NCBI GenBank assembly: GCA_015061525.1
Contig: SUWK01000024.1
Coordinates: 1-32,408, forward strand
From: Lentisphaerota bacterium
Lineage (GTDB): Bacteria > Verrucomicrobiota > Lentisphaeria > Victivallales > Victivallaceae
Direction of reading: 5' to 3'
Length of the DNA stretch: 32,408 nucleotides
Below are positions 5,396-19,161 of this stretch, one piece after another. Position 1 is the first letter of the stretch; each line of letters opens with the position of its first letter. Both the position numbers and the translations under genes were made by a program. The notes beneath the pieces are model-generated. The model saw only the letters and a list, made by a program, of their open reading frames with translations, did not search any database and was not told the DNA's origin.

Positions 5396-6649
5396 TCACA
5401 CCAGGATGAACCTTTCCGCCCGTTTTTCCCCGGCAAGTTCACTTACCGCCCAAACCAGAGCATCCATCCGGTCAGGTGAAGCGGTACGGCAGGCAGATTT
5501 GAATGAACACATCTGTTCTTCCAATTCAATAAAGTTTCCCGCGTGGTGAACGATGCCTTTTTCATAAAACGCCGCCACCGGTTCAGCGCGGGAAAACTTG
5601 TCTTTGAACGCCCGTACCTGACGGATCGGAACAGAGTCATCTTCTCCTGAAAAAAGTGTCCCGAGCAGATCGCCGCCGTTATTGACTTCGACAACGATAC
5701 AGTCGGCATGAAACTTTTTTGCCAGAACCAGTGCCTTGCGCACCCAGAGCAGCGGAGAACTTTGCATACTTTCATCAGCAAGCACATAAAATTCCCCCCG
5801 GTAATCCATCCCGGCAGCGATGATCCCCGTACAATCGCTCTCTTTTCCACCGGTCACGGCCGGATCGACCCCGATAACCACCCGGCTCAAAGGCGGAACT
5901 TCCGTCACCCGGGCGGAATCGATCATATCGCGTTTCCACAATGCGCCGTCAACATCATCGCTCCACTCACCAAGCATGAAACGTCTGCGCTGACGTTCAG
6001 GGAGATTGGCAAGGGTGTTCTCAATATAATTATCCGGCAGATTGATACGGTTATCCGCCGGATTCATCTGCATGGCGGCATAATCCTGCGGATTGGGAAA
6101 CTTTTCCCTGGTCACCGGATCACACTTTTCCATGAATACGCGGTAGCACCAATGGTTTCTGCCCGGCGGATTGCAGTCATAATAAACCCGGTTGGTCAAC
6201 GGGGGAACATTCTGCGCCAGCCGGGTCAATGCGGTCTGCACACTGGAATATTCCAACTCGGAACACTCATTGAAGTAGATCGTGGCAAACTCTTTGCCGA
6301 GGATCTTATCGGCACGTTCACCGTCATCCAGTCCGATAAGCCAGATCTCTGAACCGTTGTCAAAATGAAAAAAGTTTTCCGCCTTGTTGAAGTGCCATCG
6401 GAGCTTTCTGCCGAAGCGGCAGCGCAAAACTTTGGGCATGGTATCCATTCCGATGGTACTGCGCGCACTGGCACAGTACCGCCGGATGACAGCGTGACGG
6501 CTTCCGGGAACCCGCAGCGCACGGATCGCCAGCGCACAGCACAGAACGAAACTTTTTCCGGATCGTGAACCGCCGAAAAGCATCACATGGTGAGCCGGAG
6601 ATGTCAGCAGTTCCATCGCCTGCTGCTGAGCGGAAGTGTAGGAAAACAT
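5396..6649 (-). CDS. terL: Phage terminase large subunit (ATPase-nuclease)
   Basis: This protein powers DNA packaging into a procapsid and cuts the concatemer. The 417-residue chain has a Walker A-type GGSRSGKS (26-33), Walker B TIYFNE (123-128), a YYDCNPPG segment (156-163), and a carboxy-terminal RNase-H-fold nuclease. Nuclease carboxylates are Asp262 (GVDPA), Glu321 (VEVNNGGD) and Asp393 or Asp396 (SPDRMDA). All key residues are intact and the length is normal. The ATG at 6649 is preferred because GGAGG lies 7 bases upstream; the GTG just before it would add one residue. It is the last gene of the leftward module, whereas terminase genes usually lead a head operon. Confidence 0.93.
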   Translation of the reverse strand: MFSYTSAQQQAMELLTSPAHHVMLFGGSRSGKSFVLCCALAIRALRVPGSRHAVIRRYCASARSTIGMDTMPKVLRCRFGRKLRWHFNKAENFFHFDNGSEIWLIGLDDGERADKILGKEFATIYFNECSELEYSSVQTALTRLAQNVPPLTNRVYYDCNPPGRNHWCYRVFMEKCDPVTREKFPNPQDYAAMQMNPADNRINLPDNYIENTLANLPERQRRRFMLGEWSDDVDGALWKRDMIDSARVTEVPPLSRVVIGVDPAVTGGKESDCTGIIAAGMDYRGEFYVLADESMQSSPLLWVRKALVLAKKFHADCIVVEVNNGGDLLGTLFSGEDDSVPIRQVRAFKDKFSRAEPVAAFYEKGIVHHAGNFIELEEQMCSFKSACRTASPDRMDALVWAVSELAGEKRAERFILV

Positions 6650-6666
6650 CACACTCCCTCCGCCTG

Positions 6667-7158
6667 TTATGCCGGATTGTACAGCGAACGGAACATGAAA
6701 TTTTTCCGGCTGCCGCTGAGTTTGGGCAGGACTCCGAGAAAGAGTGCTGCCAGTTCACGGTGGCGGGAAACGGTTTCCAGCAGTTTCCGGTGCATCGCCT
6801 GACGCGAACAATTACGCAGTTTGCTCAACTTGGTAACGGTCATCGGTTCACCGGCTGCTGAGGCGAGAACGACCTCCCTGATCATACCGATGGTATAGTC
6901 ATCAAGACCGAGCAGATAGCGGAGAAACGCAGCCAGATCCCGGATGATCTTATCCCGTCCGCGACGCGTTTTGGAGATATCATGGGTTGCAGAATCATCC
7001 GGCAGAAATTCCGACACCTGTTCAAAACTCACATCACGACTGCACTTCTCACCGTGTGAAACACTTCCGGTGTAGTAACGGCAGGAGTGCAGATATTCAC
7101 AAGCGGCACACTCCGGCTTTCCGGCTGTATAATGTCCATAACAATCAATATTGTCCAT
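6667..7158 (-). CDS. Cys-cluster HTH protein of the phage module (possible small terminase)
   Basis: This 163-residue protein has two visible parts. The amino end carries four cysteines (Cys6, Cys17, Cys20, Cys26), a pattern that could bind zinc or an iron-sulfur cluster. The carboxy half contains a probable helix-turn-helix at about residues 107-132 (VTKLSKLRNCSRQAMHRKLL). Lying directly upstream of the large terminase (17-base gap), it could be the DNA-recognition subunit of the terminase or a regulator. I do not recognise the family. A TTG at 7182 would add 8 residues, but the ATG at 7158 is a better start, with AAAGGA about 10 bases upstream. The upstream gene ends at 7179, 20 bases before this start. 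Confidence 0.72.
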   Translation of the reverse strand: MDNIDCYGHYTAGKPECAACEYLHSCRYYTGSVSHGEKCSRDVSFEQVSEFLPDDSATHDISKTRRGRDKIIRDLAAFLRYLLGLDDYTIGMIREVVLASAAGEPMTVTKLSKLRNCSRQAMHRKLLETVSRHRELAALFLGVLPKLSGSRKNFMFRSLYNPA

Positions 7159-7178
7159 AAAGCATGATCCTTTTTTTC

Positions 7179-7718
7179 TCAACCACGCGAAATGCGCAGT
7201 ATTCCGATAAACTCATTTTCTTTATCATCTCCGTCATCTTCCGGAGCAACAGCTTCCCCGCCCCCGGTGTCACCGCCGGTTCCGGTGCTGCCATCGCCGG
7301 CATTTCCGGAGTTGCTGTTGTTGCCCGAATTGCCGGTATTTCCGGAGTTTGCGGAGATTTTTTCCGCACGTTCTGCCGCTGCCAGCAAAGGGGCGATCAA
7401 GGCTGCCGCCCGCTGCCCGAGCGGAGAAGCCGTATCACTGAAACGTCTGGTTCCTCCGCCGGATGACAACGATGACGTCCGGGTGTAACAGCCGGTCAGA
7501 TACTCCGGGTTGAGCATGAGAAAAACAGTCTGTTCCGCGATTGCGGCAAGCAGAAACGCTTTATCTGATTCACTTTCAATTTTACAGTGAGCCGTCGCAG
7601 CAAGAATATCCCGTTCAGCGACGGCAGCAGTTCCGGCACGTTCAGCTTCACTGCAGGCGAAATACCGTTCTTTCAAAGGATGATCCTGAAAAAAATCATC
7701 TATAGTTTCCAACTGCAT
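7179..7718 (-). CDS. Probable head-completion / connector protein
   Basis: This 179-residue protein has a helical amino half (about 1-70) resembling phage head-completion or gp6-like connector proteins: an acidic start with a DDFF segment, followed by a run of short helices and a hydrophobic LLAAIAEQTVFLM stretch. The carboxy half is low-complexity, rich in Asn, Gly and Ser (about 122-155), then acidic. The ribosome site AAAGGAGGT is strong. It lies between the major capsid gene and the terminase genes, which fits a portal or neck closure role. The assignment rests on position and helical pattern, so it is tentative. Confidence 0.65.
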   Translation of the reverse strand: MQLETIDDFFQDHPLKERYFACSEAERAGTAAVAERDILAATAHCKIESESDKAFLLAAIAEQTVFLMLNPEYLTGCYTRTSSLSSGGGTRRFSDTASPLGQRAAALIAPLLAAAERAEKISANSGNTGNSGNNSNSGNAGDGSTGTGGDTGGGEAVAPEDDGDDKENEFIGILRISRG

Positions 7719-7760
7719 AATCCGGTACCTCCTTTCGGTGTTATGTTTCAGAAAACTGCA

Positions 7761-7786
7761 CCTCCCTGCCGTTTTCAGCAGGGAGG
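7761..7786 (-). terminator. Stem-loop after the capsid gene, possible partial terminator
   Basis: Arms CCTCCCTGC (7761-7769) and GCAGGGAGG (7778-7786) form a perfect 9-bp stem with an 8-base loop. It lies 24 bases downstream of the capsid stop codon (read leftward) and before the next gene. The sequence after it has only a short TTTT, so full termination is doubtful. Attenuation, or protection of an abundant capsid mRNA 3' end, would suit the position. Confidence 0.55.
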
Positions 7787-7809
7787 GCTGCTGTAATGCG
7801 TATTACAGC

Positions 7810-8967
7810 TTATGCGGTACGCAATGCCGCGATCGCTTCGGAACTGCCGAGCAGATTTTTGATCCGGCAGCAACGCTGGGCGACGTTTTTGAACTCAAAG
7901 GTCAATTCACCGATCGCCACGCGCCGGATACCGTCAAAGCCGCCGGGGGTGGCATCCATGTCGGTGATCGCTCTGCCGGAAAGACTGGCGAGCGCGAAGC
8001 AGCCGGTATCCAGTACCCAGGCATCATTATCCGGCATATCCGGGTCAGCCATAATGGTCATGCCCCTGCCGTTGATCTCATTGACGATGACTGCGACATA
8101 AGCACCTCTGCGGTCATCGGAACGCAGGATCTGGATACGGTCACGATACTCATTGGAAATGACCCGCGCCTGACCGGGGGAACAGAGGATCTGCATGGGA
8201 TCACCGCCTTCACCGAGAATATTCTGGGCAGCATCATTGATGAGAAAGCTGTCCAGTCTGCTTTTGGCAGCGTCGATGACCGGAACTCCGGACTGCGTCC
8301 CGAAGAAGTACAGACCGCCGGCTTCGCCGCGGGTATTGACTCCGGCTTCCACACGTCTGCCGAAAAGTGCCACGCGGTTGAGATCGCGCGCCAGATCCGC
8401 CAGAGCGAAAGCTGTCTGCCGGTTGAGCTGGTTGTCAGCATTGCCGTAGAGATTGACGGCAAGAGCCGTACCGGAAAGCACGATCTCTTTGCGGAAGATC
8501 TGCGTGGCGTTCCACTGAACGTTGGCAAGATGGTAGTTCTCCTCACCGTCACCGTTGGAAGTACCCTCATTCATGGGGGTGGAAACGATGATGAAAACAC
8601 CGCCGTCGGCGGGCAGAGAAGTTACTGCACTCAAAGCTGAACCGTTATTTGCCGCCAGTTCCACTTCTGCCTGCGTACCGGAAACCGTTTTGACCCGGAA
8701 CAGTGCCGGATCATCCTTGAGAGCAACCAGTGTACCGGTTTTGAGTTTGGCAGCATCAGCGGCGGAAAGGGTCAGTTTACCGTTGGTGATCGCCTGGGCG
8801 GTGATGCCTCTGCCGGTGAGCTGATCTTCCAGATACTCATGTTTGGCACTGACGGCATCCGGAGCGGTGCGGAAGTTGGAGATAAAACGTGGTTCATCCT
8901 TGATAACAGTTGCCATCACATCGGAAAGATCGCGTTTGCGGTTGGCGAAAGTGTAGTTGTAAAGCAT
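7810..8967 (-). CDS. Major capsid protein, SU10/DUF5309 type (HK97 fold)
   Basis: This 385-residue protein has the features of the SU10-type major capsid family (DUF5309): an amino-terminal segment about keeping a chain with a paired domain (HEYLEDQLT, near residue 43), the ANVQWNATQIFRKEIVLSGTA region, the ADLARDLNRVALFGRR helix and the EAGGLYFFGT loop typical of these proteins, then a carboxy-terminal domain. It would form the shell of the head. The gene begins at an ATG with AAAGGA upstream. The scaffold gene lies directly upstream and no maturation protease gene is present, which suits a scaffold-dependent, protease-free assembly. There is no frameshift or internal stop. Confidence 0.85.
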   Translation of the reverse strand: MLYNYTFANRKRDLSDVMATVIKDEPRFISNFRTAPDAVSAKHEYLEDQLTGRGITAQAITNGKLTLSAADAAKLKTGTLVALKDDPALFRVKTVSGTQAEVELAANNGSALSAVTSLPADGGVFIIVSTPMNEGTSNGDGEENYHLANVQWNATQIFRKEIVLSGTALAVNLYGNADNQLNRQTAFALADLARDLNRVALFGRRVEAGVNTRGEAGGLYFFGTQSGVPVIDAAKSRLDSFLINDAAQNILGEGGDPMQILCSPGQARVISNEYRDRIQILRSDDRRGAYVAVIVNEINGRGMTIMADPDMPDNDAWVLDTGCFALASLSGRAITDMDATPGGFDGIRRVAIGELTFEFKNVAQRCCRIKNLLGSSEAIAALRTA

Positions 8968-9048
8968 GGTGTATTTTTCCTTTCAGATTTTGTTTTTTGC
9001 GCTGGATCATCTGCCCTTTGCAGAGAGTACAGCATAGTTTGTTATATG

Positions 9049-9501
9049 TTATCGGCAGACAGCATCGGGAGCATTGTCGATAGACAACGCGATCAGCGCG
9101 ATACGGTCTCCGTTAAGGGCTTCCCTGCGATTCCCGGCATGGGAAGCCGGCTCAGAAGTGTTCCCTGCACTGCTGCCCGGGGTGATCCTGGCATTGAAAC
9201 ACCCCGGGGCAGCGGCGGCGAGTTCCCGGGTGAACTGCCGCAGTTTTTCAGGATCGTTCAAAGGTACTCCCTGACGGGCGGCACAGAACTCCAGATATTC
9301 AGCATCGGTACAGCCGCTCTCATAGCAAACCTTTTCCAACAGACTCTTTTTCTGCAGAGCCTCGCACTGCCGGCGCAGTCTGGCACACTCCTCTTCCAAT
9401 TCAGCCAGACGTTCTTTTCCGTCATTTTCCGGAACCGGAACCTCTGCTGCGGCGGCGGCAACAGTTTCTGTACCGCAGGCAATATCAATATCAGTTGGCA
9501 T
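9049..9501 (-). CDS. Phage scaffolding protein
   Basis: This 150-residue acidic protein has a predicted coiled coil at about residues 28-56 (a Glu, Leu and Arg-rich run), then a short helical domain and a disordered Ser/Gly/Ala-rich tail. Small coiled-coil proteins placed just before the major capsid gene are normally scaffolds that shape the procapsid and then leave. The start has a good AGGAGTG site. The portal gene ends only 6 bases upstream, so the genes are probably cotranscribed. The family is assigned from position and composition rather than from a sequence signature. Confidence 0.75.
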   Translation of the reverse strand: MPTDIDIACGTETVAAAAAEVPVPENDGKERLAELEEECARLRRQCEALQKKSLLEKVCYESGCTDAEYLEFCAARQGVPLNDPEKLRQFTRELAAAAPGCFNARITPGSSAGNTSEPASHAGNRREALNGDRIALIALSIDNAPDAVCR

Positions 9502-9507
9502 AATTTT

Positions 9508-10881
9508 TCACTCCTGATCTATTTCGTTGATAATAGTTTCTTTTTCTTTTATTCCGACATGCCCGATGGCATCGAGCAATTCCACAGCGGTTCTGCCGAC
9601 GGCGCGTTTGTATGCATTACCGGCAGCTATTCCGGAAAGCTGCAGCAGTCCGGCGATCCCCGAAGCCAGATCGTTGACCGCAAACCTGCGGTTGTAATGG
9701 ACATCAGGTACATTCAGATCCAGATCGTAGCGGCGCATAAGTTTCCATGCATCCAGCTCCGCCTGCTCCAGCAGTTCAGCGCGGGCGCAGAGGAACTGGG
9801 AAACGTTCTGGAAATCCCACGCTTTGGATTCAGAACTCTGTGCCTCTTTGGAGTTACCCTGAACCGCCAGACCGACCACGTCGTAGAGTTCCTGTTTAAG
9901 ATAACGGTTCTCTTCGCGGATGGTGTCAGTAGCCACTCCGGAGGGACTGATGTAGCGGCTGATGCCTTTTTCCTCCACCGATTCAATGATTGCGGCACTG
10001 CGCGCCACGGTAGCGGCGAAGTTATCCTCCTTGCCCTCGCTGACCGCAAGTTTCTTCGCGCATCTGGCGAAACTGTCGGAAACGACCAGCATACCGAACA
10101 TCTGCTTGACCGTATTCATCTGAGCTTCGGATTCATTGTTGAGTATCGCTTCGCTGATGCGCACGACATCTTCAAACCAGTGGTTGGCCGCCAGACCGAA
10201 ACCGTCAGGTTCGGTGATCGGGATCAGCGGCACACAGCCGGTGGGATTCACTCCGGAAGCGATCTCCATAACTGAACCGGAACTGTTTTCAAACACCCGC
10301 CAGCAGTTGCGGTCGTAAAGGCGGCGGCGGCGCAAACGTACCGGCGGAGAAAAAGGATCGTGATTGACGTACTCCTCTTCAGCGATAAGGGCCCAGACAA
10401 GTTTACCGTCACTGCCGTATGCCCAGTCAACCACCTGTAATGGCGACAGTGCCCGGACATACGGACGGAGACGCTCTTTTTTTGCCTCAAGCAAAGTCGG
10501 CTGTCCCTGAAAAAACGGCATTTCGACCAGCAGCCACGCTCTGCCGTAAACATTGAGCAAAGTGGATACCTGACGCATCACGTCATTGGTACGCAGACCG
10601 GTTCTGCTCCAATCATCCACCAGTTCAGCATCGACATGACGGCGCACCGGTTCAATGCTCAGAGCGTACTGGGTGATCCGCCGTGCGATCGCCCGCGGGT
10701 AGTTGAAGTAATATGCCCGGCGTTTACGTTCGGCGAACTCCATATCGATCTCGGAAACATGGCGGATCAACGCCTGTTCGATGTATTCCCTGCCGCCGGA
10801 ATACGCCTCTGCCGACCGCCGCCAGCGGCGTTCATTGGCGGTATACTGGGGATTTTTGCGGTAAAAGATGTAGTTGTTCAT
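9508..10881 (-). CDS. Phage portal protein
   Basis: This 457-residue protein would form the twelve-subunit ring at one vertex through which DNA enters the head. The start is rich in aromatic and basic residues. A long helical wing domain follows, and the middle carries the ALSPLQVVDWAYGSDGKLVW segment with beta strands around it, as in portals of the SPP1 gp6 and DUF4055 sort. The VGLAVQGNSKEAQSSESKAWDF stretch with a helix after it matches the carboxy-terminal crown region. The ATG at 10881 (CAGGA upstream) is preferred over a TTG at 10899. The gene overlaps nothing after this choice. It lies between the small terminase-like ORF and the scaffold. Confidence 0.85.
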   Translation of the reverse strand: MNNYIFYRKNPQYTANERRWRRSAEAYSGGREYIEQALIRHVSEIDMEFAERKRRAYYFNYPRAIARRITQYALSIEPVRRHVDAELVDDWSRTGLRTNDVMRQVSTLLNVYGRAWLLVEMPFFQGQPTLLEAKKERLRPYVRALSPLQVVDWAYGSDGKLVWALIAEEEYVNHDPFSPPVRLRRRRLYDRNCWRVFENSSGSVMEIASGVNPTGCVPLIPITEPDGFGLAANHWFEDVVRISEAILNNESEAQMNTVKQMFGMLVVSDSFARCAKKLAVSEGKEDNFAATVARSAAIIESVEEKGISRYISPSGVATDTIREENRYLKQELYDVVGLAVQGNSKEAQSSESKAWDFQNVSQFLCARAELLEQAELDAWKLMRRYDLDLNVPDVHYNRRFAVNDLASGIAGLLQLSGIAAGNAYKRAVGRTAVELLDAIGHVGIKEKETIINEIDQE

Positions 10882-10895
10882 AATTTTAAATCCTG

Positions 10896-11132
10896 TCAAA
10901 GTAAATTTTCCGTAACGGTAAACATTTCCGTACTGCGTTCGTCATTTTCGCTGTCCCGGCGTTTTTTCCAACGTTCCGGGCAGCGGTTTTCCAACCAGTA
11001 CATCGCCGCCCGCACATCCGGGGGAACGATCTTGCCCGCCGCATCCTCATAACCGGTGGCGCGGCGGAGCAGAGCCTCCTCTACCAGTGCCAGAAGTTTA
11101 TTTTCTTTTTCCTCCATTGTTTCTGCTGTCAT
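10896..11132 (-). CDS. Small TerS-like protein
   Basis: This 78-residue protein opens with an acidic helix (MEEKENKLLALVEEALLRRA) and then contains PPDVRAAMYWLENRCPERWKKR. The W-L-x-N-R-x-P-x-x-W pattern is a familiar closing motif of phage terminase small subunits and related HTH proteins, which suggests DNA or packaging-related binding. The usual amino-terminal HTH domain is missing, so it may be a minimal or truncated form. The start at 11132 has CAGGAGGG. The upstream ORF overlaps its first 35 bases. A terminase-associated function is an inference from the motif. Confidence 0.72.
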   Translation of the reverse strand: MTAETMEEKENKLLALVEEALLRRATGYEDAAGKIVPPDVRAAMYWLENRCPERWKKRRDSENDERSTEMFTVTENLL

Positions 11133-11328
11133 TGTCGACCCTCCTGCGTTTCATACCCCTGCATATATACGCTCTATTGTCAACATGATTTGCGAACATT
11201 TCATTCAGCAAACGCATCAAACCGGATGCCGAATACACTTTTCCGCAAGGGGCGATCAGCGGATCATTGATCTTACCTGCAAGAATATCCATTGCTTTTT
11301 CAATCTCCTGTAATGTGTTCATAATCAT
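11098..11328 (-). CDS. Small first gene of the leftward phage operon
   Basis: This 76-residue ORF is read from the ATG at 11328, or from the ATG at 11322, two codons later. Upstream in-frame TTG codons would add up to 21 residues, but the predicted start of transcription is about 11390, and the leader contains GAGGAG at about 11379. Residues after MNTLQEIEKAMDILAGKI suggest a helical protein; the carboxy end is very basic (RRRVDN...KRK). I do not recognise a family. The gene begins only 3 bases beyond operator O1, and its end overlaps the next gene, so it would be made first when the repressor is lost. No strong ribosome site fits the chosen start, so confidence is moderate. Confidence 0.5.
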   Translation of the reverse strand: MIMNTLQEIEKAMDILAGKINDPLIAPCGKVYSASGLMRLLNEMFANHVDNRAYICRGMKRRRVDNDSRNNGGKRK

Positions 11329-11330
11329 TA

Positions 11331-11346
11331 ATTGCACGCGTGCAAT
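11331..11346. promoter_or_regulatory. Operator O1, perfect 16-bp palindrome
   Basis: The 16 bases ATTGCACGCGTGCAAT are a perfect palindrome. Their half-sites match those of two other sites in the same divergent intergenic region. The site lies in the leader of the leftward operon, 2 bases before the probable ATG of the first gene. A repressor bound here could block elongation or loop with the upstream sites. Binding by the neighbouring S24 repressor is inferred. Confidence 0.7.
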
Positions 11347-11396
11347 CGTTCCGGGCAAAAAAGTCAGCCGCTCCTCTTTTGCAGCCGTCAAAAATC

Positions 11397-11425
11397 AATA
11401 TAATTGCATGGATGCAATTTTTCAA
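11397..11425 (-). promoter_or_regulatory. Leftward promoter with operator O2 as its spacer
   Basis: Read leftward, a -35 box TTGAAA (11425-11420) is followed by a 17-base spacer and a -10 box TATATT (11402-11397). The spacer (11403-11419) is occupied by the palindrome ATTGCATGGATGCAAT, whose half-sites match O1. Occupancy would directly exclude RNA polymerase. Transcription is expected from about 11390, feeding the whole capsid module. Evidence is sequence pattern only. Confidence 0.7.
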
Positions 11426-11452
11426 CCCATATTTTTAACTTTTTTTCAAAAA

Positions 11453-11485
11453 ATTGCTTGCATGCACGCAATTGGCATGTATATT
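11453..11485 (+). promoter_or_regulatory. Rightward repressor promoter with operator O3
   Basis: Half-sites ATTGCTTG (11453-11460) and CACGCAAT (11465-11472) form an imperfect 20-bp palindrome. Overlapping it is a possible -35 box TTGCAT (11458-11463), then a 16-base gap and a -10 box TATATT (11480-11485). The repressor could therefore control its own gene. O3 has a wider half-site spacing than O1 and O2, which may mean weaker binding. Confidence 0.6.
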
Positions 11486-11543
11486 AATCAGTGTAACGAT
11501 AATTTCTCCATTTCATCCGGGAAAATGAAAGGGACATGACACT

Positions 11544-12449
11544 ATGAGGATAAATGACCATATTCTGCACTCGCTGCGTCAGGCAGTGGAAACAGCCGGA
11601 GGTGCCAAAGAACTTGCCGCCAGATCGCAAGTCAGCGCATCCAATATTTCGCGTTACTTGAGCGGCAAAGTCCGCTCCATCACCGATGAGTGCTGGGAAA
11701 GACTTGTGCCATTTCTGGATCTGCCCGTTCCTCCGGCAGTTTCCGGCACCATCACCAATACCCCGGAACTGCGCAGTTTTATCATATCTGCAATGGAAAA
11801 ATGCGGCATGGAAAACACTGAACAGCTCCGCCGTGCCATCGGTTATGATTCCGGGAACAGCTTGAAGCGGCTGTTTGACGGGGAACTGAACTGGTTTCCG
11901 GATGTATTGTCAGCCGTATTTGATGCGCTGAATTGTGATCCATCCACCGCTCCGCTGCGTCCGGGTGAAATGGAACTGCTTGCTCCGCGCGGGATCTACC
12001 GCGACGGTGCGATGCTGGTGCGTCCGGTTCCGGTTGTGGAGTGGGCGAATGCTGCCAGTCATCTGGAAAATCTGGAATCCGACACCGTGATCATGCGCCG
12101 CTGGGATCCGGAAACCACCCCGACAGTACCGGTTCCGGCATCTTCGCGCCGGGATACCAAAGCGTTCCGTGTCCACGGCATATCCATGGAACCGCGCATA
12201 CTTGATGACGATATCGTACTGGTGGAACCGGCGGAGAACTTCGATGCCATTCCGGACAACAAAGTGGTCGTTGTGCGTTTCAATGAACAGAGCTGCATCC
12301 CGGAAAAAGTGGTCTGCAAACGTCTTCGCAAGCAAAACGGTTCCCAGCTGCTTCTGACCAGTGACAATCCCGAAGGCAAAATCATACCATTTGAACTTCA
12401 GGATGTCGCCTGGGTTGGTATCGTCGTCCGCAAGATCAGCGAGATGTAA
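11544..12449 (+). CDS. CI/LexA-like repressor with S24 peptidase domain
   Basis: This 301-residue regulator carries a helix-turn-helix at about residues 20-45 (ELAARSQVSASNISRYLSGK), a second HTH-like region at about 92-130 and a carboxy-terminal S24 signal-peptidase-like domain. The catalytic pair is visible: Ser214 in HGISMEP and Lys259 in VVCKRL, 45 residues apart, close to the spacing in lambda CI. In related proteins, RecA filaments trigger self-cleavage and induction. The usual Ala-Gly cleavage site is replaced here by VPVVEWANAAS. Start ATG 11544 has AAAGGG 10 bases upstream. It is divergent from the capsid genes with three palindromes between, so it very probably represses them. Its stop lies 3 bases from the convergent dsbD stop. 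Confidence 0.88.
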   Translation: MRINDHILHSLRQAVETAGGAKELAARSQVSASNISRYLSGKVRSITDECWERLVPFLDLPVPPAVSGTITNTPELRSFIISAMEKCGMENTEQLRRAIGYDSGNSLKRLFDGELNWFPDVLSAVFDALNCDPSTAPLRPGEMELLAPRGIYRDGAMLVRPVPVVEWANAASHLENLESDTVIMRRWDPETTPTVPVPASSRRDTKAFRVHGISMEPRILDDDIVLVEPAENFDAIPDNKVVVVRFNEQSCIPEKVVCKRLRKQNGSQLLLTSDNPEGKIIPFELQDVAWVGIVVRKISEM

Positions 12450-12452
12450 CGA

Positions 12453-13631
12453 TCATTTAACGATGATGAAAGCGGGAAAGCCGGGAATACCGTAATGCTT
12501 GAGCAGAGCTGCGGTTTCCGGTTCACCGGGATCTTCGGCGGGAAATGTTACCATGATGAAGTTGTCTTTGATAAACTTTGCCGTTTCCGGATCTTTGAGC
12601 GTGGTCTTTTCCATAGCGTGACAATTTTTGCACCATGACGCAGTGAACTTGACCAGAATCGGTTTGCCGGTTTCCTCTGATTCGATTTGAGCCGCTTCAA
12701 ACGCCTCAAAACCGTCGACAGCCGCCGGGACACCGTCATCCGGCAGAAGTTTTATTCCCAATACAGTGTAATAGACAGCGGCACCGAATATGATCACTGC
12801 GAAGAGGTATTTTATTATCACCATAAATCTGCCCGGTTTGGGCAATACTGCCAATCCGGCTCCGGCAAATGGCCACGGCAAAGCCATACCGATACCCAGA
12901 GCGAAGGGGACAAAACAGCCATACCATCCGGTACCGGCGGCAAAGAGCAGCACGCTGATGACCACCGGGGCGACACAGGCACCGGCGAGCAAAGCCGAAA
13001 CTCCGCCCATGAGCAGCGCAGTCAAATCCATGGAAACTTTGAGTTTTCCCGGAGAGATATGAAATTTCGATGCCGGGTCAAGCGTAAAAACCCCCGCCAT
13101 GCCGAGAGAGAGCAGAAGGTATATCAGCGCAATGACAAAATTGAATACCGGAGAACTGTTAAGGGAACCGAAACCGACACCGGCAAATGCCGCCAGAACT
13201 CCGAGAATGCCGTAAACTGCAGCCATGCCGATACCGTAAAGCAATCCGCGCCGGAATCCCTGCGAGCCGCCTGATGCACCGATGATCGCCAGATTTACCG
13301 GCAGCATCGGCAAAACACACGGGGTCAGATTAAGAGCCAATCCACCGGCAAGAGCGATCAATATCATCACCCAGAAAGCCTTTCCGGCAGCCGGAGCATC
13401 TTCTCCTTTGAGAAAGGCGAGGAACTCCGGCACTCCGGTATAGCCGACCAGTTTCCGCACCAGCACTGGATACTCTGTTGTTTCACCGGTGATCTCCTCA
13501 CCGGCAGGAACGTCATCCGCATCCACCAGCTTACAGATTCCGGTCTCTTCATCACAAACCATTTGCGGCGCGGCAGAAAGCTGCCGGACAGACACCGTAA
13601 ACAGGCAGAAAATAACGATCAAAAATCTCAT
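12453..13631 (-). CDS. DsbD-like thiol:disulfide interchange protein
   Basis: This 392-residue protein carries reducing power across the cytoplasmic membrane to periplasmic thiol proteins. After a signal-like start there is a short periplasmic segment, then a CcdA/DsbD-type polytopic domain of about eight helices with the paired transmembrane cysteines Cys105 (LTPCVLPMLP) and Cys219 (AGACVAPV). A thioredoxin domain follows, with Cys334-Lys-Asn-Cys337 in TASWCKNCHAME. The normal DsbD amino-terminal alpha domain is missing or very short, which is common for this subtype. Its ATG overlaps the stop of the preceding thioredoxin-fold gene (ATGA). It is the last gene of the Bat-redox unit and converges on the phage repressor with a 3-base gap. 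Confidence 0.88.
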   Translation of the reverse strand: MRFLIVIFCLFTVSVRQLSAAPQMVCDEETGICKLVDADDVPAGEEITGETTEYPVLVRKLVGYTGVPEFLAFLKGEDAPAAGKAFWVMILIALAGGLALNLTPCVLPMLPVNLAIIGASGGSQGFRRGLLYGIGMAAVYGILGVLAAFAGVGFGSLNSSPVFNFVIALIYLLLSLGMAGVFTLDPASKFHISPGKLKVSMDLTALLMGGVSALLAGACVAPVVISVLLFAAGTGWYGCFVPFALGIGMALPWPFAGAGLAVLPKPGRFMVIIKYLFAVIIFGAAVYYTVLGIKLLPDDGVPAAVDGFEAFEAAQIESEETGKPILVKFTASWCKNCHAMEKTTLKDPETAKFIKDNFIMVTFPAEDPGEPETAALLKHYGIPGFPAFIIVK

Positions 13632-14131
13632 TGTCCCCTCCGTTTTTTATTATTATCACCGAATTTACGCATAAATTTATCCGATTTATATTTGCAATAC
13701 TTCGCCAGTTCAGACAGGAACTCTCCGGCGGAACCGGAACGGTAACTGCGGAATACGGTGCGTGTTTTTCCATTCGGATCGGTCACCAGTACAGTTGGAA
13801 AGACAGTTACATTGTAATACTCTTTGCACTTGTTTCTGATATAGGCATCTTTTGCCGAAACCTTTGCATCAAGTCCGAAATCAAAATAAAGAACAATAAA
13901 GTTTTTCTCTGCCAATTCCCGGAAATATCTGTTATCCACCACTTCGCGGTCAAAGATCTTACATATATTGTTCCATTTGGTACCGGTAAAAAGTATGAGC
14001 ATATCTTTTTTTTCACGTTTTGCTCTTTTGAATACCGCTTCCGGATCATCTTCCCAGCTGCGCGGGACACCGGCGATAACGGCAAAAGGCAGATATGCCA
14101 TCAACAGTGATAAGAATATCAACTTCCGCAT
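13628..14131 (-). CDS. Secreted thioredoxin-fold protein lacking the first active-site cysteine
   Basis: This 167-residue protein has a signal peptide (about residues 1-20) and a thioredoxin-fold core: LILFTGTKW before the active-site loop and the TVFPTVLV strand with the cis-proline. The active-site loop is W53-N-N-I-C57 instead of W-C-x-x-C, so only the second cysteine remains. It therefore cannot run a normal dithiol cycle. It could bind a partner, form a mixed disulfide or act structurally. The 26-base gap to the upstream thioredoxin-fold gene and overlap with dsbD suggest one transcript. The sequence resembles its neighbour (same order of segments), so a tandem duplication is likely. Confidence 0.82.
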   Translation of the reverse strand: MRKLIFLSLLMAYLPFAVIAGVPRSWEDDPEAVFKRAKREKKDMLILFTGTKWNNICKIFDREVVDNRYFRELAEKNFIVLYFDFGLDAKVSAKDAYIRNKCKEYYNVTVFPTVLVTDPNGKTRTVFRSYRSGSAGEFLSELAKYCKYKSDKFMRKFGDNNKKRRGQ

Positions 14132-14156
14132 TTCCCCACACCCCGTATCGGCCGCG

Positions 14157-14597
14157 TTACTTTTGCGGCAGATACTGCCTCAGTGCGTTCAGATACGCTT
14201 CAAGCGGGCGGTAACCGCCGATCGTTCCGATCCGGCTGCCGTCCGGTTTGAGGATGACCACAGTCGGATAACCTCTGACACCGAACTTTCTCTGCCACAT
14301 TTTCTGTATCTGCATCTGTCCGGCAGAAACACTGGAGTTGGAGGGAAAGTCAAAGTAGACCGGTACAAAATTTTCATTGCACAGTTTCTGAAAATCATCC
14401 TTGTCCAGCACGTCGTTTTTCAACCGGACACAGTAGCGGCACCAATCGGAACCGGTAAAGAGCAGCAGCACATTTTTCTTTTCACTTCCGGCAGTTTTCA
14501 ACGCAGCTTCAATATCAGTGGTCCACCCTTTCGGAGCTGCGGCATGGAGGATACCGGCACCGAACAGTACAGCGAAGATCAGCAGTAATTTTTTCAT
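14157..14597 (-). CDS. Secreted thioredoxin-family protein with intact CxxC
   Basis: This 146-residue protein has a signal peptide (about 1-20) and a thioredoxin fold: LLLFTGSDW, then Cys53-Arg-Tyr-Cys56, and GYPTVVILKPDG with the cis-proline and beta strands after it. It probably receives electrons from the DsbD-like protein two genes downstream and reduces periplasmic targets. A GTG at 14615 would add 6 residues; the ATG at 14597 is favoured by AAAGGAAA about 8 bases upstream and gives the usual signal peptide. It follows the BatD-BatE fusion by 62 bases. Confidence 0.88.
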   Translation of the reverse strand: MKKLLLIFAVLFGAGILHAAAPKGWTTDIEAALKTAGSEKKNVLLLFTGSDWCRYCVRLKNDVLDKDDFQKLCNENFVPVYFDFPSNSSVSAGQMQIQKMWQRKFGVRGYPTVVILKPDGSRIGTIGGYRPLEAYLNALRQYLPQK

Positions 14598-14635
14598 AAT
14601 GTTTTTTCCTTTCACAGCTGAATTGTTGATTTATC

Positions 14636-14660
14636 ACAAACTTATAACGTAAAAGTTTGT
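14636..14660. repeat. AT-rich inverted repeat after the BatD-BatE stop
   Basis: Arms ACAAACTT (14636-14643) and AAGTTTGT (14653-14660) are perfect, with a 9-base loop. The stem abuts the stop codon of the BatD-BatE gene. There is no T-run on the leftward 3' side, so it is at most a weak terminator or a processing signal between the Bat and thioredoxin genes. Confidence 0.4.
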
Positions 14661-17038
14661 CACCATATTTTATACGGAAAGATGCGGACGGCATCTTTTT
14701 TACTTATCCAACCGCTTGCTCCGGCAGTGCGGATCTGCCAGAAACCGCCGTTTTCGCCGGTGATGATCACTTCACTGCCGCCGGGCAATGACACCGGAGT
14801 TTCCGCAGATTCTGCCGGAACCGCCCGCAAAGGAGCCGGTGCCGCCGTCACCATTGCCCGTTCAAAAGAATACACTGTCGTATGCAGATATGCCGCACCG
14901 GTCAGGAAGATCACCATCAACAGTACCATAAGTGTCTGTATTGTGATGAATAAACCGGCAGCCATCCGTCTGCGCCACAGCCAGAATACACCGGCAGCGG
15001 CGAAGATCGCCGCCGCGATCACGATCATGTTATCCGGACGCAGAAACATCAGGTGCTGTAATCCGCGTGAAAAAGTTTTCTCTTCTCCGGGCAGAGTCAA
15101 TTTCTCCTTTGACCGTTCCATAGCCTGACGGTAAACACTGTTCCACGGTTCAAGCAGATGCGCCCGGGTGAAAAACAAATGAGCCTGCGGCAGATCACCG
15201 AGCATAAACCAGGCACAGCCAAGGTCATAAAGCAAAGCCGGATCCACGGAATTTTCAGAAGCGGTCAATTCGGAAAAGTTTGCTGCTGCTTCCCGGAAAC
15301 GCCCCTGATCGAAAGCATCTGCCGCCGTCTGATAATCTGCGGAAAGTTTTCCGGGGAAGATGAGTGCGAAAAACAAAACCGCAAACAGTGACAGTTTCTT
15401 CAAAAAACCGGTGAGTTCAGCCAATTTTCCATCCGTCAACTGCAGTTCAGTTTTTCCGGGAGCAAAACCGCTTGCCGCCAATTGCCGCAAAAGTTCCGCG
15501 ATTTCCGGGTCATCAACTTTTTCCGCGATCTCCTCAAAGGTTGCCCCGGGAGCAAGCTCCATAGCAGCTGCGATAATTTCCCTGCCGGAACCCTGCAACG
15601 CTGCAGCACCGTGACGTTTGACCGCTTTTATCAACTGTGCCATTTGACGGCGGTTCGGCTTTTTACCGGTATTGCGCCGCACTCTGCCGACAGACAAAAT
15701 TATTGAAACAACTCCGCAGAGCAGTAAACCGGCGATCCACGGCAAAACATTTTTTATCAACGGCAAACGGAGTGTTTTTCCGGGTGGAAGCAAGGTAAAA
15801 GTCAGAAGTTCAGCATTGACGTCACTCTTTTTTCCACCGTTGTTTTCCGCAGTGATATTTGCGGAACTTTTCTCCTCACTGCTGACATCCGCGATCCCGG
15901 GCAGAGCGGTGAAATGCAGTTCGCGGCGGAAGAGAGTGTATTTACCGCTCTGCACGTCAAAATACGCCAGAGCCAGCGGCAGTGTCACTTTACCGCTTTT
16001 TACTGCGACAAAGGGATATTTCACGGTAAACGTCTGCAGGTCACGGCTTTTGGTCACCTCGGCAGGATAAACACGCGTTCCCGGGATATCCAGCTGCGGC
16101 GCATGGAATGCCGGAACCGGAGCGGAACCGGTAAAATTCAGGATCAATTCACCCAGATCACCGGTTTTAAGTTCCTCTTTGCTGAATTTTGCCGAAATCT
16201 GCCAATTGCCGATAAGTCCGGTGTTTATACAGTTTTCCGGAGCCGGAGGCAATGGGATAACGGTCAATTTTGCAGAACTTTCTGCCGTCACCCGGCGCAT
16301 CTGCTCACGAATGGGGGAAAAGAAATCATTTGTCCGCCGTCCGGTACGCATTTCAAGCTGACAGAGCGGAGTGAATGTACCGCTTTTCTGCACTTGAAAC
16401 ATCGCAGTAAAATTCACTGCCGTTCCGCCGTTATACCGCATGGGTTCATCGGTGATGACAAAAGTTTCCCCTTTTTTACCGATCTCCAGATAGAGCGGAT
16501 CACCGAAACCGGAAACCTTGAATTCCGGCATGGCGAGCAGCTGCCATGCCCCCGGGAGAAAAAGTTCCACATCGGCACGCACAACTTCACCGACATAGAC
16601 ACGCCGTTGGGGAGTGAGGGTCAACTTTGCGGAAAACTTCTCTCCGGCGGGCAATTGGGCGGCATCTCTGACGGTGATTTCCAGTTTGTTGGTCTGAACT
16701 TTTTTACCGTTGATATCCAAAGTAAACGGTGCGATGGTGTATTTACCCGGTTTATCAGCCATGGCGGCGACCCCGTAAACGGCTGTCGCGGTACGTTTGC
16801 CATTGATAACGGTGGTGTTGAATGAGGAAGAGGAAATATTCTTTGACACCCGTAATCCGTCGGGCAATTCAGGGAGTTTCAGAGAGAATTTCTCGTCGCT
16901 GTCCAGAATTATTTCAAAAGTAAACAGTTCCCCGGAAACCGGACGCGATGGCCGTACGGCAAGCTGTGGTGCCGCAGCGAACAGTGTACACATATACCCG
17001 CAAAGGAGCATCGGCAAGTATAATTTTTTCATTTTCAT
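14660..17038 (-). CDS. BatD-BatE fusion protein (oxygen-tolerance family)
   Basis: This 792-residue protein joins two Bat components. Residues about 1-25 are a signal peptide, then comes a BatD-type beta-rich region whose FTFEIIL, PGKYTIAPFTLDINGKKV and VQKSGTFTP stretches repeat the family pattern, ending with a transmembrane helix near residue 440 (WIAGLLLCGVVSIILSV). A hydrophobic stretch near 560 (LFAVLFFALIFPGKLSA) looks exactly like a signal peptide, and is followed by TPR-like repeats, two more helices and a carboxy-terminal SH3-like domain: the layout of BatE. The start at 17038 overlaps the upstream stop (TGATG). In other bacteria these are separate proteins linked to aerotolerance; the mechanism is not settled. 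Confidence 0.82.
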   Translation of the reverse strand: MKMKKLYLPMLLCGYMCTLFAAAPQLAVRPSRPVSGELFTFEIILDSDEKFSLKLPELPDGLRVSKNISSSSFNTTVINGKRTATAVYGVAAMADKPGKYTIAPFTLDINGKKVQTNKLEITVRDAAQLPAGEKFSAKLTLTPQRRVYVGEVVRADVELFLPGAWQLLAMPEFKVSGFGDPLYLEIGKKGETFVITDEPMRYNGGTAVNFTAMFQVQKSGTFTPLCQLEMRTGRRTNDFFSPIREQMRRVTAESSAKLTVIPLPPAPENCINTGLIGNWQISAKFSKEELKTGDLGELILNFTGSAPVPAFHAPQLDIPGTRVYPAEVTKSRDLQTFTVKYPFVAVKSGKVTLPLALAYFDVQSGKYTLFRRELHFTALPGIADVSSEEKSSANITAENNGGKKSDVNAELLTFTLLPPGKTLRLPLIKNVLPWIAGLLLCGVVSIILSVGRVRRNTGKKPNRRQMAQLIKAVKRHGAAALQGSGREIIAAAMELAPGATFEEIAEKVDDPEIAELLRQLAASGFAPGKTELQLTDGKLAELTGFLKKLSLFAVLFFALIFPGKLSADYQTAADAFDQGRFREAAANFSELTASENSVDPALLYDLGCAWFMLGDLPQAHLFFTRAHLLEPWNSVYRQAMERSKEKLTLPGEEKTFSRGLQHLMFLRPDNMIVIAAAIFAAAGVFWLWRRRMAAGLFITIQTLMVLLMVIFLTGAAYLHTTVYSFERAMVTAAPAPLRAVPAESAETPVSLPGGSEVIITGENGGFWQIRTAGASGWISKKDAVRIFPYKIW

Positions 17039-19161
17039 CACCAATCCTTATTTACCCGCCGGCGGCGGAGCTGCTGTTGACGGCGGATGGCATCACGCAG
17101 CTGTCCGGCTTCATCATCGAGCAGTTCCAGTTTTTTTCCGGCGGCGTTTTGAGCCTCTTTTTCCGAATTGTCTTCCTGAACTTCCCCGGCACCAGGAGCT
17201 TTTTCCTCACCGGAATTTCCGGAACCGGCATTTTGAGCATCTTTATTCCCGCCGGATTTTCCGTCGGACTTATCTTCCGGTTTGCCGAGTTTTTCCTTTG
17301 CCTGCTCCAGTTTCTCTGCGGCATCACGATAGTTGCCCTGCTGCTGGAGTTTTTCCGCCTCTTTCAAGTCATCAGCGGCGGACTGCGCCTGGTCGGCAAG
17401 TTTATCCTGACCGAGTTCCTTTGCCTGTTGAGAGAGTTTTTCGGCGGAGTCTGCAGCGGCTTTACTCTGTTGAGATGCCTGATTTCGCTGTTCCTGCTCT
17501 TTTCCGGAACCATCCTGCGGCTGCTGATTCTGTTGTTCTTTATCACCCTGCGGCTGCTGAGCCTGCTGCTGTGCTTTGTCACTCTGCGGCTGGTTCTGTT
17601 GTTCTTTATCACCCTGCGATTGCTGTTGGTTCTGCTGTTGGTTCTGCTGTTGATTCTGCTGCTGTGCCTGTTGAGTCTGTTCCCGGGTTTTCTGTTGTTG
17701 AGCTTTCAATTCCTGAAGTTTTTTCAAAAGTTCTTTTGCGGCAAGATCATCGCGCAGCAGATGGTTGTAATTGCTTATGCGTCCGGAGTCAGCACTCTGA
17801 TCGGCAGTATTAAGTGAACCGGCATACAACTCTTTGCTCAAGGAGAAAAGTCCCTGAGAACCGGTCAGAGTTTTGATCGCCTCATCAAGCTGCTGAGCCT
17901 GCAGCTGCTGACGGCTTTTTTCCACGATTTCCCGGGCGGAACGGTGACGGATGACCGCCAGATTCTGCATGGCACGGGAACGGATCAATTCAGGAGCATC
18001 TGCCGAAGCGGCAAGTTTTTCGTAGATCGCGGCGGCATCACCGCTGCCGTTTTTCTGCATTTCCAACGCCTGTTGATAGAGGGCTGCCGGATCACTTGCC
18101 GGAACATTTTTCCCGTTATCTTCTGCGGCGGTAAGCATCAGCGGCAGAAGTACGAAAAGCACGACTTTAACTTTCTTTCTTGACGATATCCCGGCGGCAA
18201 GTGCCAGCACGATCAATGCAGCAATGACAAAATAACCGAAAAGATCATCCGGCACGGCACGTTTTTCCGATTCTGAAAACCGGGGACTGGCAAGGTCGGT
18301 GATCGCGGTTTTCACTGCGGAAAAACCGGTATCGCCCACCGTGCTGCGGAAATATCTGCCGCCGGTGGCAAGGGCGATCCTGTTCAGCAAAGCTTCGTTG
18401 AGTTTGCTGCCGACTGCTTCACCGCTGCTGTCACGCATGATTTTGCCCTCTTCATCCGGAACCGGAGCGGCGGCATCCGGAGAACCGAAGCCTACTGCGA
18501 TCAGCGGGATGTGCTGTTCCTCAAGCTGTTTCAGAGCTTTTGCAGTATTACCGGTCAATTCATCACCGTCGGTCAGAAGCAGGATCACCCGCTGTTCTCC
18601 TGCGGAAGCGGCAAAACTTTTATCTGCCGCCAGCAGTGCCTGTTCCAGATTGGTTCCGCCGACAGGAACACTGTCGTAATCCAATTGATCGATGCACTGC
18701 TGCAAGGTATGATGATCACGGGTAAGCGGACAACTGACAAAGGCTTTACCGGCAAAGGGGATGAGTCCGAAACGGTCTTCGGGAAAGGCTTTGATGACCT
18801 GCCGCAGCAGATATTTTGCCTGCTCCATACGCGATGGAGGCAGATCGGCGGCACGCATGCTTTTGGAAACGTCAAAAATCACCATTACATCCCGCGAAAG
18901 ATCCCCGGATGCCATCTCCTGATAACGGATATACGGGCGGGCGGATGCGAGGGTGATCAGGATAAGAGCAAGCAGGATCAGAATCAGCCGGAATACCCGT
19001 TTGGGTTTTGAAAGCGAAACGAACCGCGGATCATCTGCGGCAGGACCCAGCAGTTTTTTACGCAGACGGCTTTTACGTTTTTCCGTCAGAATGAAACAAA
19101 GTGCGGCGATGATCAACGCGCATGCTCCGTAGAGCAGCATCAATGGTTCGGCAAACTTCAT
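17038..19161 (-). CDS. BatB-BatC fusion: VWA-domain membrane protein with TPR and Q-rich tail
   Basis: This 707-residue protein begins with a hydrophobic helix, then a second at about 58-74, then a von Willebrand A domain with an intact MIDAS motif (Asp97-x-Ser99-x-Ser101, in FDVSKSM). Thr in GGTNLEQ and Asp in LLLTDGDE complete the metal site. A helix follows near 310-325. Then KKVKVVLFVLLPLMLTAAED (about 328-347) looks like a former signal peptide. It is followed by TPR-like repeats and a Gln-rich coil (about 490-580), as in BatC. Start ATG 19161 has GAAAGGAAA upstream. It is the first gene of the Bat operon. No BatA or MoxR gene lies upstream. Confidence 0.85.
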   Translation of the reverse strand: MKFAEPLMLLYGACALIIAALCFILTEKRKSRLRKKLLGPAADDPRFVSLSKPKRVFRLILILLALILITLASARPYIRYQEMASGDLSRDVMVIFDVSKSMRAADLPPSRMEQAKYLLRQVIKAFPEDRFGLIPFAGKAFVSCPLTRDHHTLQQCIDQLDYDSVPVGGTNLEQALLAADKSFAASAGEQRVILLLTDGDELTGNTAKALKQLEEQHIPLIAVGFGSPDAAAPVPDEEGKIMRDSSGEAVGSKLNEALLNRIALATGGRYFRSTVGDTGFSAVKTAITDLASPRFSESEKRAVPDDLFGYFVIAALIVLALAAGISSRKKVKVVLFVLLPLMLTAAEDNGKNVPASDPAALYQQALEMQKNGSGDAAAIYEKLAASADAPELIRSRAMQNLAVIRHRSAREIVEKSRQQLQAQQLDEAIKTLTGSQGLFSLSKELYAGSLNTADQSADSGRISNYNHLLRDDLAAKELLKKLQELKAQQQKTREQTQQAQQQNQQQNQQQNQQQSQGDKEQQNQPQSDKAQQQAQQPQGDKEQQNQQPQDGSGKEQEQRNQASQQSKAAADSAEKLSQQAKELGQDKLADQAQSAADDLKEAEKLQQQGNYRDAAEKLEQAKEKLGKPEDKSDGKSGGNKDAQNAGSGNSGEEKAPGAGEVQEDNSEKEAQNAAGKKLELLDDEAGQLRDAIRRQQQLRRRRVNKDW

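Follow-up and report, generated by a model that had tools for sequence, protein, structure and literature searches.

A host-inherited, phage-derived head and packaging locus in Victivallaceae that probably serves a particle working like a gene transfer agent

A block of phage head and packaging genes lies within a 32,408-nucleotide stretch of DNA from a Lentisphaerota bacterium of the family Victivallaceae (GCA_015061525.1, contig SUWK01000024.1, positions 1 to 32,408; contig C54 in our numbering), referred to here in its entirety as the window. The source genome measures 2.83 Mb and is 90% complete. Together with a divergently oriented S24-type repressor gene, the block sits between rodA and dsbD (these names, like purA, were given by reading the sequence alone), with gaps of 2-3 bp from its outer genes to the host gene on each side. 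The minus strand carries, in order, a small open reading frame (ORF) of 97 amino acids, the small terminase (TerS), the portal, a scaffold-like protein, an SU10-type major capsid protein (MCP), an adaptor-like protein, p171 and the large terminase (TerL). All named genes are open (Table 1).

Table 1. Features of the head and packaging block and its regulatory region (positions of the window).
Feature	Position	Strand	Basis
TerL, large terminase	5396..6652	-	Terminase_6N 2e-15, Terminase_6C 2e-12 (Pfam), phrog_979 2e-64
p171, four conserved Cys and helix-turn-helix (HTH)-like, probable regulator	6667..7182	-	own locus in other genera
Adaptor-like (head-completion) protein	7179..7718	-	position and distant homologues
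MCP, SU10 type	7810..8967	-	SU10_MCP 7e-46
Scaffold-like protein	9049..9501	-	position
Portal protein	9508..10899	-	phrog_145 3e-44
TerS, small terminase, without the N-terminal HTH-like part of deeper congeners	10896..11132	-	phrog_309 2e-13
Small 97-aa ORF, similar ORFs in congeners	11098..11391	-	no PHROG match
Putative operator 1	11332..11345	.	sequence repeat TTGCAYNNRTGCAA
Putative operator 2	11404..11417	.	sequence repeat TTGCAYNNRTGCAA
Putative operator 3, one mismatch	11458..11471	.	sequence repeat TTGCAYNNRTGCAA
CI-like repressor, HTH and S24 domain	11544..12449	+	Peptidase_S24 6e-16

The initial annotation had described an intact head-only phage module with its own repressor switch. 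Its portal, SU10-type capsid and large terminase were recovered as open genes by Pfam and PHROG matching, and the S24 repressor does face the head genes across three operator-like sites. The scaffold and head-completion frames are likewise intact; neither protein has a significant family match, and their names derive from gene order and from the proteins that occupy the same positions in prophages. As for its two small-terminase candidates, the TerS listed in Table 1 is supported, while the 97-aa ORF lacks a PHROG match and p171 is instead a four-cysteine, HTH-like protein. Matching of the window proteins to Pfam and PHROG agrees with the same annotation in that it brought up no integrase and no gene for replication, tail or lysis in the interval from rodA to dsbD. 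Among 20 of the 36 direct-repeat families, no pair flanks the block. Across 12 aligned relatives, the ATPase and nuclease residues of TerL show no variation.

The block is a regular component of the genus. Of 34 genus genomes, counting that of the window, 30 have MCP and portal, and TerL occurs in 30 of 33 congeners, one of these being a scrap at a contig end. Wherever the contig allows, the gene order is constant, and matches to MCP, portal and TerL contain no internal stops. Broken contigs aside, the module is present in single copy except in genome G021, where a prophage-like MCP and TerL form a second set (L054, 3403-11474) with a capsid 64% identical to that of the window and a divergent TerL. 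The host flanks are constant within subclades. Two genomes have the module in reverse orientation, G014 next to rodA and G017 next to a moxR-like gene, and one congeneric subclade has the module adjoining a moxR-like gene. Many of the relatives found with a capsid profile come from herbivore guts. Outside the window, genes were called with a simple codon-usage caller, and some were missed or misread in GC-rich loci.

Comparison with the host gene rpoB indicates vertical inheritance. More specifically, the module tree and the rpoB tree of 22 genomes share 13 of 19 splits, where label shuffles share 0.25 on average and 3 at most. Mantel correlations with rpoB over the same genomes are 0.75 (MCP), 0.89 (portal) and 0.65 (TerL). 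Within the genus, rpoB falls to 74% identity with the window's copy, and the association between module and genus is therefore old. A second rpoB, 49% identical to that of the window genome, was seen in G009 (L292, contig C40); it represents contamination or an odd paralogue.

Between sister species, the ratio of non-synonymous to synonymous substitution rates (dN/dS) is 0.08-0.13 for MCP, 0.06-0.14 for portal and 0.04-0.07 for TerL, indicating purifying selection. Over all pairs with dS below 1.5, the median is 0.18 for the S24 repressor, 0.32 for TerS and 0.42-0.43 for adaptor, scaffold and p171. These calculations leave out the rpoB rows of G006, G008 and G026, which had wrong-strand frames, and dS is near saturation in many pairs. 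The initial annotation was right in describing an intact module that is not decaying.

The regulatory region is retained as well. Taken alone, the three operator sites of the window are modestly unusual, as 3 of 100 shuffles also reach three. Across 27 congeneric loci, however, sites with at most one mismatch number 60 in the 1.3 kb before the portal gene, against none in the other 457 kb. At least one site is present in 23 of these loci and three sites in 16, and none was found in the loci of G006, G008, G024 and G026. G007, in which an S24 gene was not detected, retains two sites. Neither an S24 gene nor operators were found in the subclade of G006, G008 and G026. In 12 whole genus genomes, all exact matches to the 16-mer operator lie at the module, and six one-mismatch sites lie elsewhere; since the exact sites are confined in this way, no other locus seems to be under the repressor's control.

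The small terminase differs between subclades. The frames of the window and of nine close relatives (L022-L028, L030, L031) encode only the C-terminal part, and deeper congeners have a longer TerS with an HTH-like N-terminus, recognised by eye and by one weak Pfam HTH match below the cut-off. The TerS of the Rhodobacter capsulatus gene transfer agent (RcGTA) likewise lacks the N-terminal DNA-binding HTH domain, according to PMC6854486. The missing DNA-binding part hints that in the window subclade mostly random host DNA may be packaged.

Outside the window's genus, the same phage genes appear in the family in a different arrangement, distributed among five or more unlinked cassettes that genomes retain or lose as a set. 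A scaffold-MCP-adaptor cassette lies between host genes, and portal and TerL, outside prophages, occupy separate loci with ordinary neighbours. p171 often stands beside a Cro-like gene and a weakly CI-like gene, and a protein termed p490 heads a tail cassette in several genera, followed by proteins of 166-188 aa and 264-307 aa and a fibre (L347, L348, L351); the fibres match phrog_5302 (4e-35) and phrog_15437 (1e-48). Two single contigs illustrate the dispersal: TerL, MCP, portal, p171 and p490 lie at 1.604, 1.774, 1.786, 1.974 and 2.605 Mb in G150, and p490, MCP, portal, TerL and p171 at 0.52, 0.57, 1.86, 2.24 and 2.78 Mb in G140.

Beyond the genus, 44 genomes of the family were scored: 34 contain MCP, portal and TerL, and 28 contain all five markers. 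None of the five was found in 9 genomes from six genera, the completeness of these system-less genomes being 78-97%, and G143 is the single genome to lack only MCP among the first three. Genomes with MCP, portal and TerL that lack p171 are G111, G120, G128 and G134; those that lack p490 are G120, G134, G135 and G151. In these counts the fragmentary TerL of genus g24 was scored as present, and genomes within one genus are not independent. TerL of genus g24 (G110, G111, G112) is represented only by several partial matches, spread over separate contigs and in many cases at a contig end, and p490 of G110 carries a stop; the g24 terminase is perhaps interrupted or multiplied. In six genomes of genus g38 (L210, L211, L213, L217, L228, L229), p490 lies directly upstream of TerL, so that two cassettes unlinked in other genera are joined there.

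All fifteen genomes reached through cassette or prophage loci, which include G074 (the genus genome G021), have portal and TerL, some as fragments only and some also as prophage copies. The dispersed portal and TerL copies group mostly by genus in trees, and the distances of MCP, portal and TerL correlate across 14 genomes (r 0.66-0.89). The trio of MCP, portal and TerL is likewise found in a second family, in three of its genomes (G043, G050, G055).

Tail genes bear on the head-only description, which is accurate for the locus and too strong for the organism. In G011, a member of the window's subclade, a stand-alone tail-fibre cassette lies between host genes (L396, 9254-14475). It encodes six proteins, of 279, 290, 329, 357, 354 and 124 aa: a homologue of a protein from the tail region of two prophages, two unknowns, a stalk with coiled coil, a tip of laminin-G type and a DUF1353/phrog_1158 protein. 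On the IMG/VR contig L105, the S24 gene of a window-type module has L396-related genes as immediate neighbours. No match to the tail proteins was found in 371 kb of G029. Together with the unlinked tail cassettes of other genera, these loci suggest that head-only, true of the locus, perhaps does not hold for the cell.

Tailed relatives of the module are found among prophages of the same family, L080 (BRZ_AG bin40) and L098 (UBA5247), both of which carry tail genes. The gene order in L080 is TerS-portal-scaffold-MCP-adaptor-MuF-...-p171-TerL-tail genes, and the portal, MCP and TerL of this prophage are 61%, 67% and 59% identical to those of the window. Among the loci examined, homologues of MuF, neck and tape-measure proteins are confined to prophage-like ones. 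A pair of related tail-tube-like ORFs follows the scaffold-MCP-adaptor cassette of G150 (L219, 6602-7560), and one of its proteins is 34% identical to the tube-like protein of L098.

Taken together, we consider it probable that the block is the head and packaging locus of a phage-derived particle that is kept by the family and works like a gene transfer agent, with its tail parts encoded elsewhere; gene transfer agent and domestication were two of the options raised by the initial annotation. Gene content, vertical inheritance, purifying selection, the local switch and the kinship to tailed prophages and dispersed gene sets are the directly supported parts of this reading. In the proposed mechanism, the S24 repressor would occupy the three operators and silence the divergent head operon. 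Its inactivation, probably through self-cleavage after DNA damage, would allow portal, scaffold, capsid and terminase to be made; a procapsid would then assemble and TerL would pump in DNA, which in the window subclade may be largely non-specific host DNA. Tail parts would be supplied from a separate locus, and the particles would exit the cell and hand over their DNA.

A published definition (PMC9662315) gives six features of gene transfer agents. Three are found here: proteins of Caudoviricete origin, as read from the genes; an endogenized genome in multiple loci, judging by the host flanks of the block and the dispersed genes on the G140 and G150 contigs; and mostly vertical inheritance with the host, following rpoB within the genus and mostly by genus for the dispersed genes. 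The remaining features, packaging of mostly random host DNA, a head too small for the agent's own genome and delivery of DNA to other cells, are experimental; we therefore liken the working of the system to that of a gene transfer agent and stop short of classing it as an established one. A broader scheme is possible and is put forward tentatively: the family would own a gene transfer agent with head, portal, terminase, tail and switch in at least five unlinked cassettes, and the genus a second, compact version from the same phage family under a lysogeny-type repressor with its tail elsewhere; this would be a gene transfer agent outside the known groups, met at two stages of domestication.

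Several observations weigh against this reading. Particle, packaged DNA and transfer are predicted from genes alone, and no lysis gene was identified. The block is missing from the genus genomes G005, G018, G023 and G030 (completeness 71-87%), and an S24 gene was not found by sequence in G006, G008, G024, G026 and G007. MCP of G006 is split in two frames or pieces (L045, 6884-7890). Median dN/dS over pairs with dS below 1.5 is 0.21 for MCP, 0.18 for portal and 0.21 for TerL, and low-dS pairs other than sister species reach 0.51, or 0.76 in a scrap of 36 codons. None of the 34 genus genomes yields a credible match to p490, and the L396-type tail cassette was seen in one genus genome, the others, the window's included, not having been searched for it. 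The prediction of non-specific packaging does not extend to the whole genus, because deeper congeners keep the HTH-like part of TerS. Finally, the portal and TerL trees place L080 within or next to the genus clade, a grouping that the MCP tree does not reproduce, and the dispersed clade of the portal tree contains two prophage portals. Given these groupings, there may have been two domestications, or some exchange with phages.

The same selection and vertical inheritance would fit equally well a domesticated capsid with another job, such as sequestering the tails of infecting related phages as an anti-phage measure, or storing or disposing of DNA. The cluster has no tail, tailed relatives such as L080 exist in the family, and the switch is purely local, all of which suits this idea. 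We nevertheless hold it to be unlikely, as portal and terminase are conserved with catalytic residues, the unlinked tail cassettes of sister genera share the fate of the head genes, whether kept or lost, and a tail-fibre cassette occurs in one congener.

Repeated capture from L080-like phages, in place of a single inheritance in the genus, would explain the position of L080 in the portal and TerL trees and the 6 of 19 module splits missing from the rpoB tree. The 13 common splits argue against it, the others being mostly weakly supported or among very close species, and subclades share the same flanks; we regard such capture as improbable. A capsid-forming satellite that borrows the tails of a helper, also proposed by the initial annotation, would have its own capsid, portal, terminase and repressor at a locus without a tail, as here. 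No integrase or replication gene was recognised at the locus, the module tree follows rpoB and the sites are stable within subclades, which makes a satellite highly improbable. A prophage remnant kept by chance is very hard to credit. The comparison with related genomes by which the initial annotation's reading could have fallen turns out mixed: tailed prophages sharing this order of head genes occur (L080), but at none of the examined module sites, and clear damage is rare (the split MCP of G006 and a p171 of G032 interrupted by a stop). Frames stay open with low sister-species dN/dS across a genus in which rpoB diverges by as much as 26%, and repressor and operators are retained in most loci.

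Elsewhere in the window, the region past the block (12453-19161) holds dsbD-like, two thioredoxin-like and Bat-like genes, named by reading, and an open frame of 1491 aa lies near the contig end (26833-31308).

Should the proposed reading be true, the Victivallaceae of the gut would possess a DNA-packaging particle built into their genomes, exapted independently in a phylum without a gene transfer agent in the literature searched. The family would also display successive natural stages: a prophage (L080), a head module still clustered and under a repressor, and genes fully dispersed among those of the host. Comparison could then test how a phage turns into a host organ. Lone MCP, portal or TerL genes in such genomes would then not necessarily be prophage debris. 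One study (PMC11361711) reportedly describes chronic phages of deep-sea Lentisphaerae. Within the accessible literature on phages and gene transfer agents of Lentisphaeria, Victivallales, Victivallis and Verrucomicrobiota, which covers few subscription papers and preprints, no such system is described, and the available part of PMC8863827 contains no description of one either.

Among known systems, the RcGTA type (Rhodogtaviriformidae) resembles the present one in its host-inherited, phage-derived head and packaging genes and, for the window subclade, in a TerS without the N-terminal HTH. RcGTA genes are spread over five loci, according to PMC9662315, and those of the family likewise over several. 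The system differs from the RcGTA type in its SU10-like capsid, its CI/S24-type repressor with three operators, its host outside the Alphaproteobacteria and its tail-less head cluster; the likeness is one of described features, and the particles of the present system are predicted. With phage SU10 itself, the sole feature compared, the major capsid protein family PF17236, is shared. Unlike the window block, the prophages L080 and L098 additionally have genes for MuF, neck and tail tube, together with a tape measure in L098 and replication-type genes in L080, and a complete prophage unites in one element the tail, lysis, replication and integration genes that were not recognised in the block. 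Capsid-forming phage-inducible chromosomal islands (cfPICIs) carry an integrase and replication genes or a primase and move between genomes. They share with the block their own capsid, portal, terminase and repressor, whereas the block has no recognised integrase or primase and is vertically inherited. Encapsulin-like compartments are empty shells, made of a capsid without portal and terminase; in contrast, portal and TerL stand beside MCP in the genus, and both are conserved.

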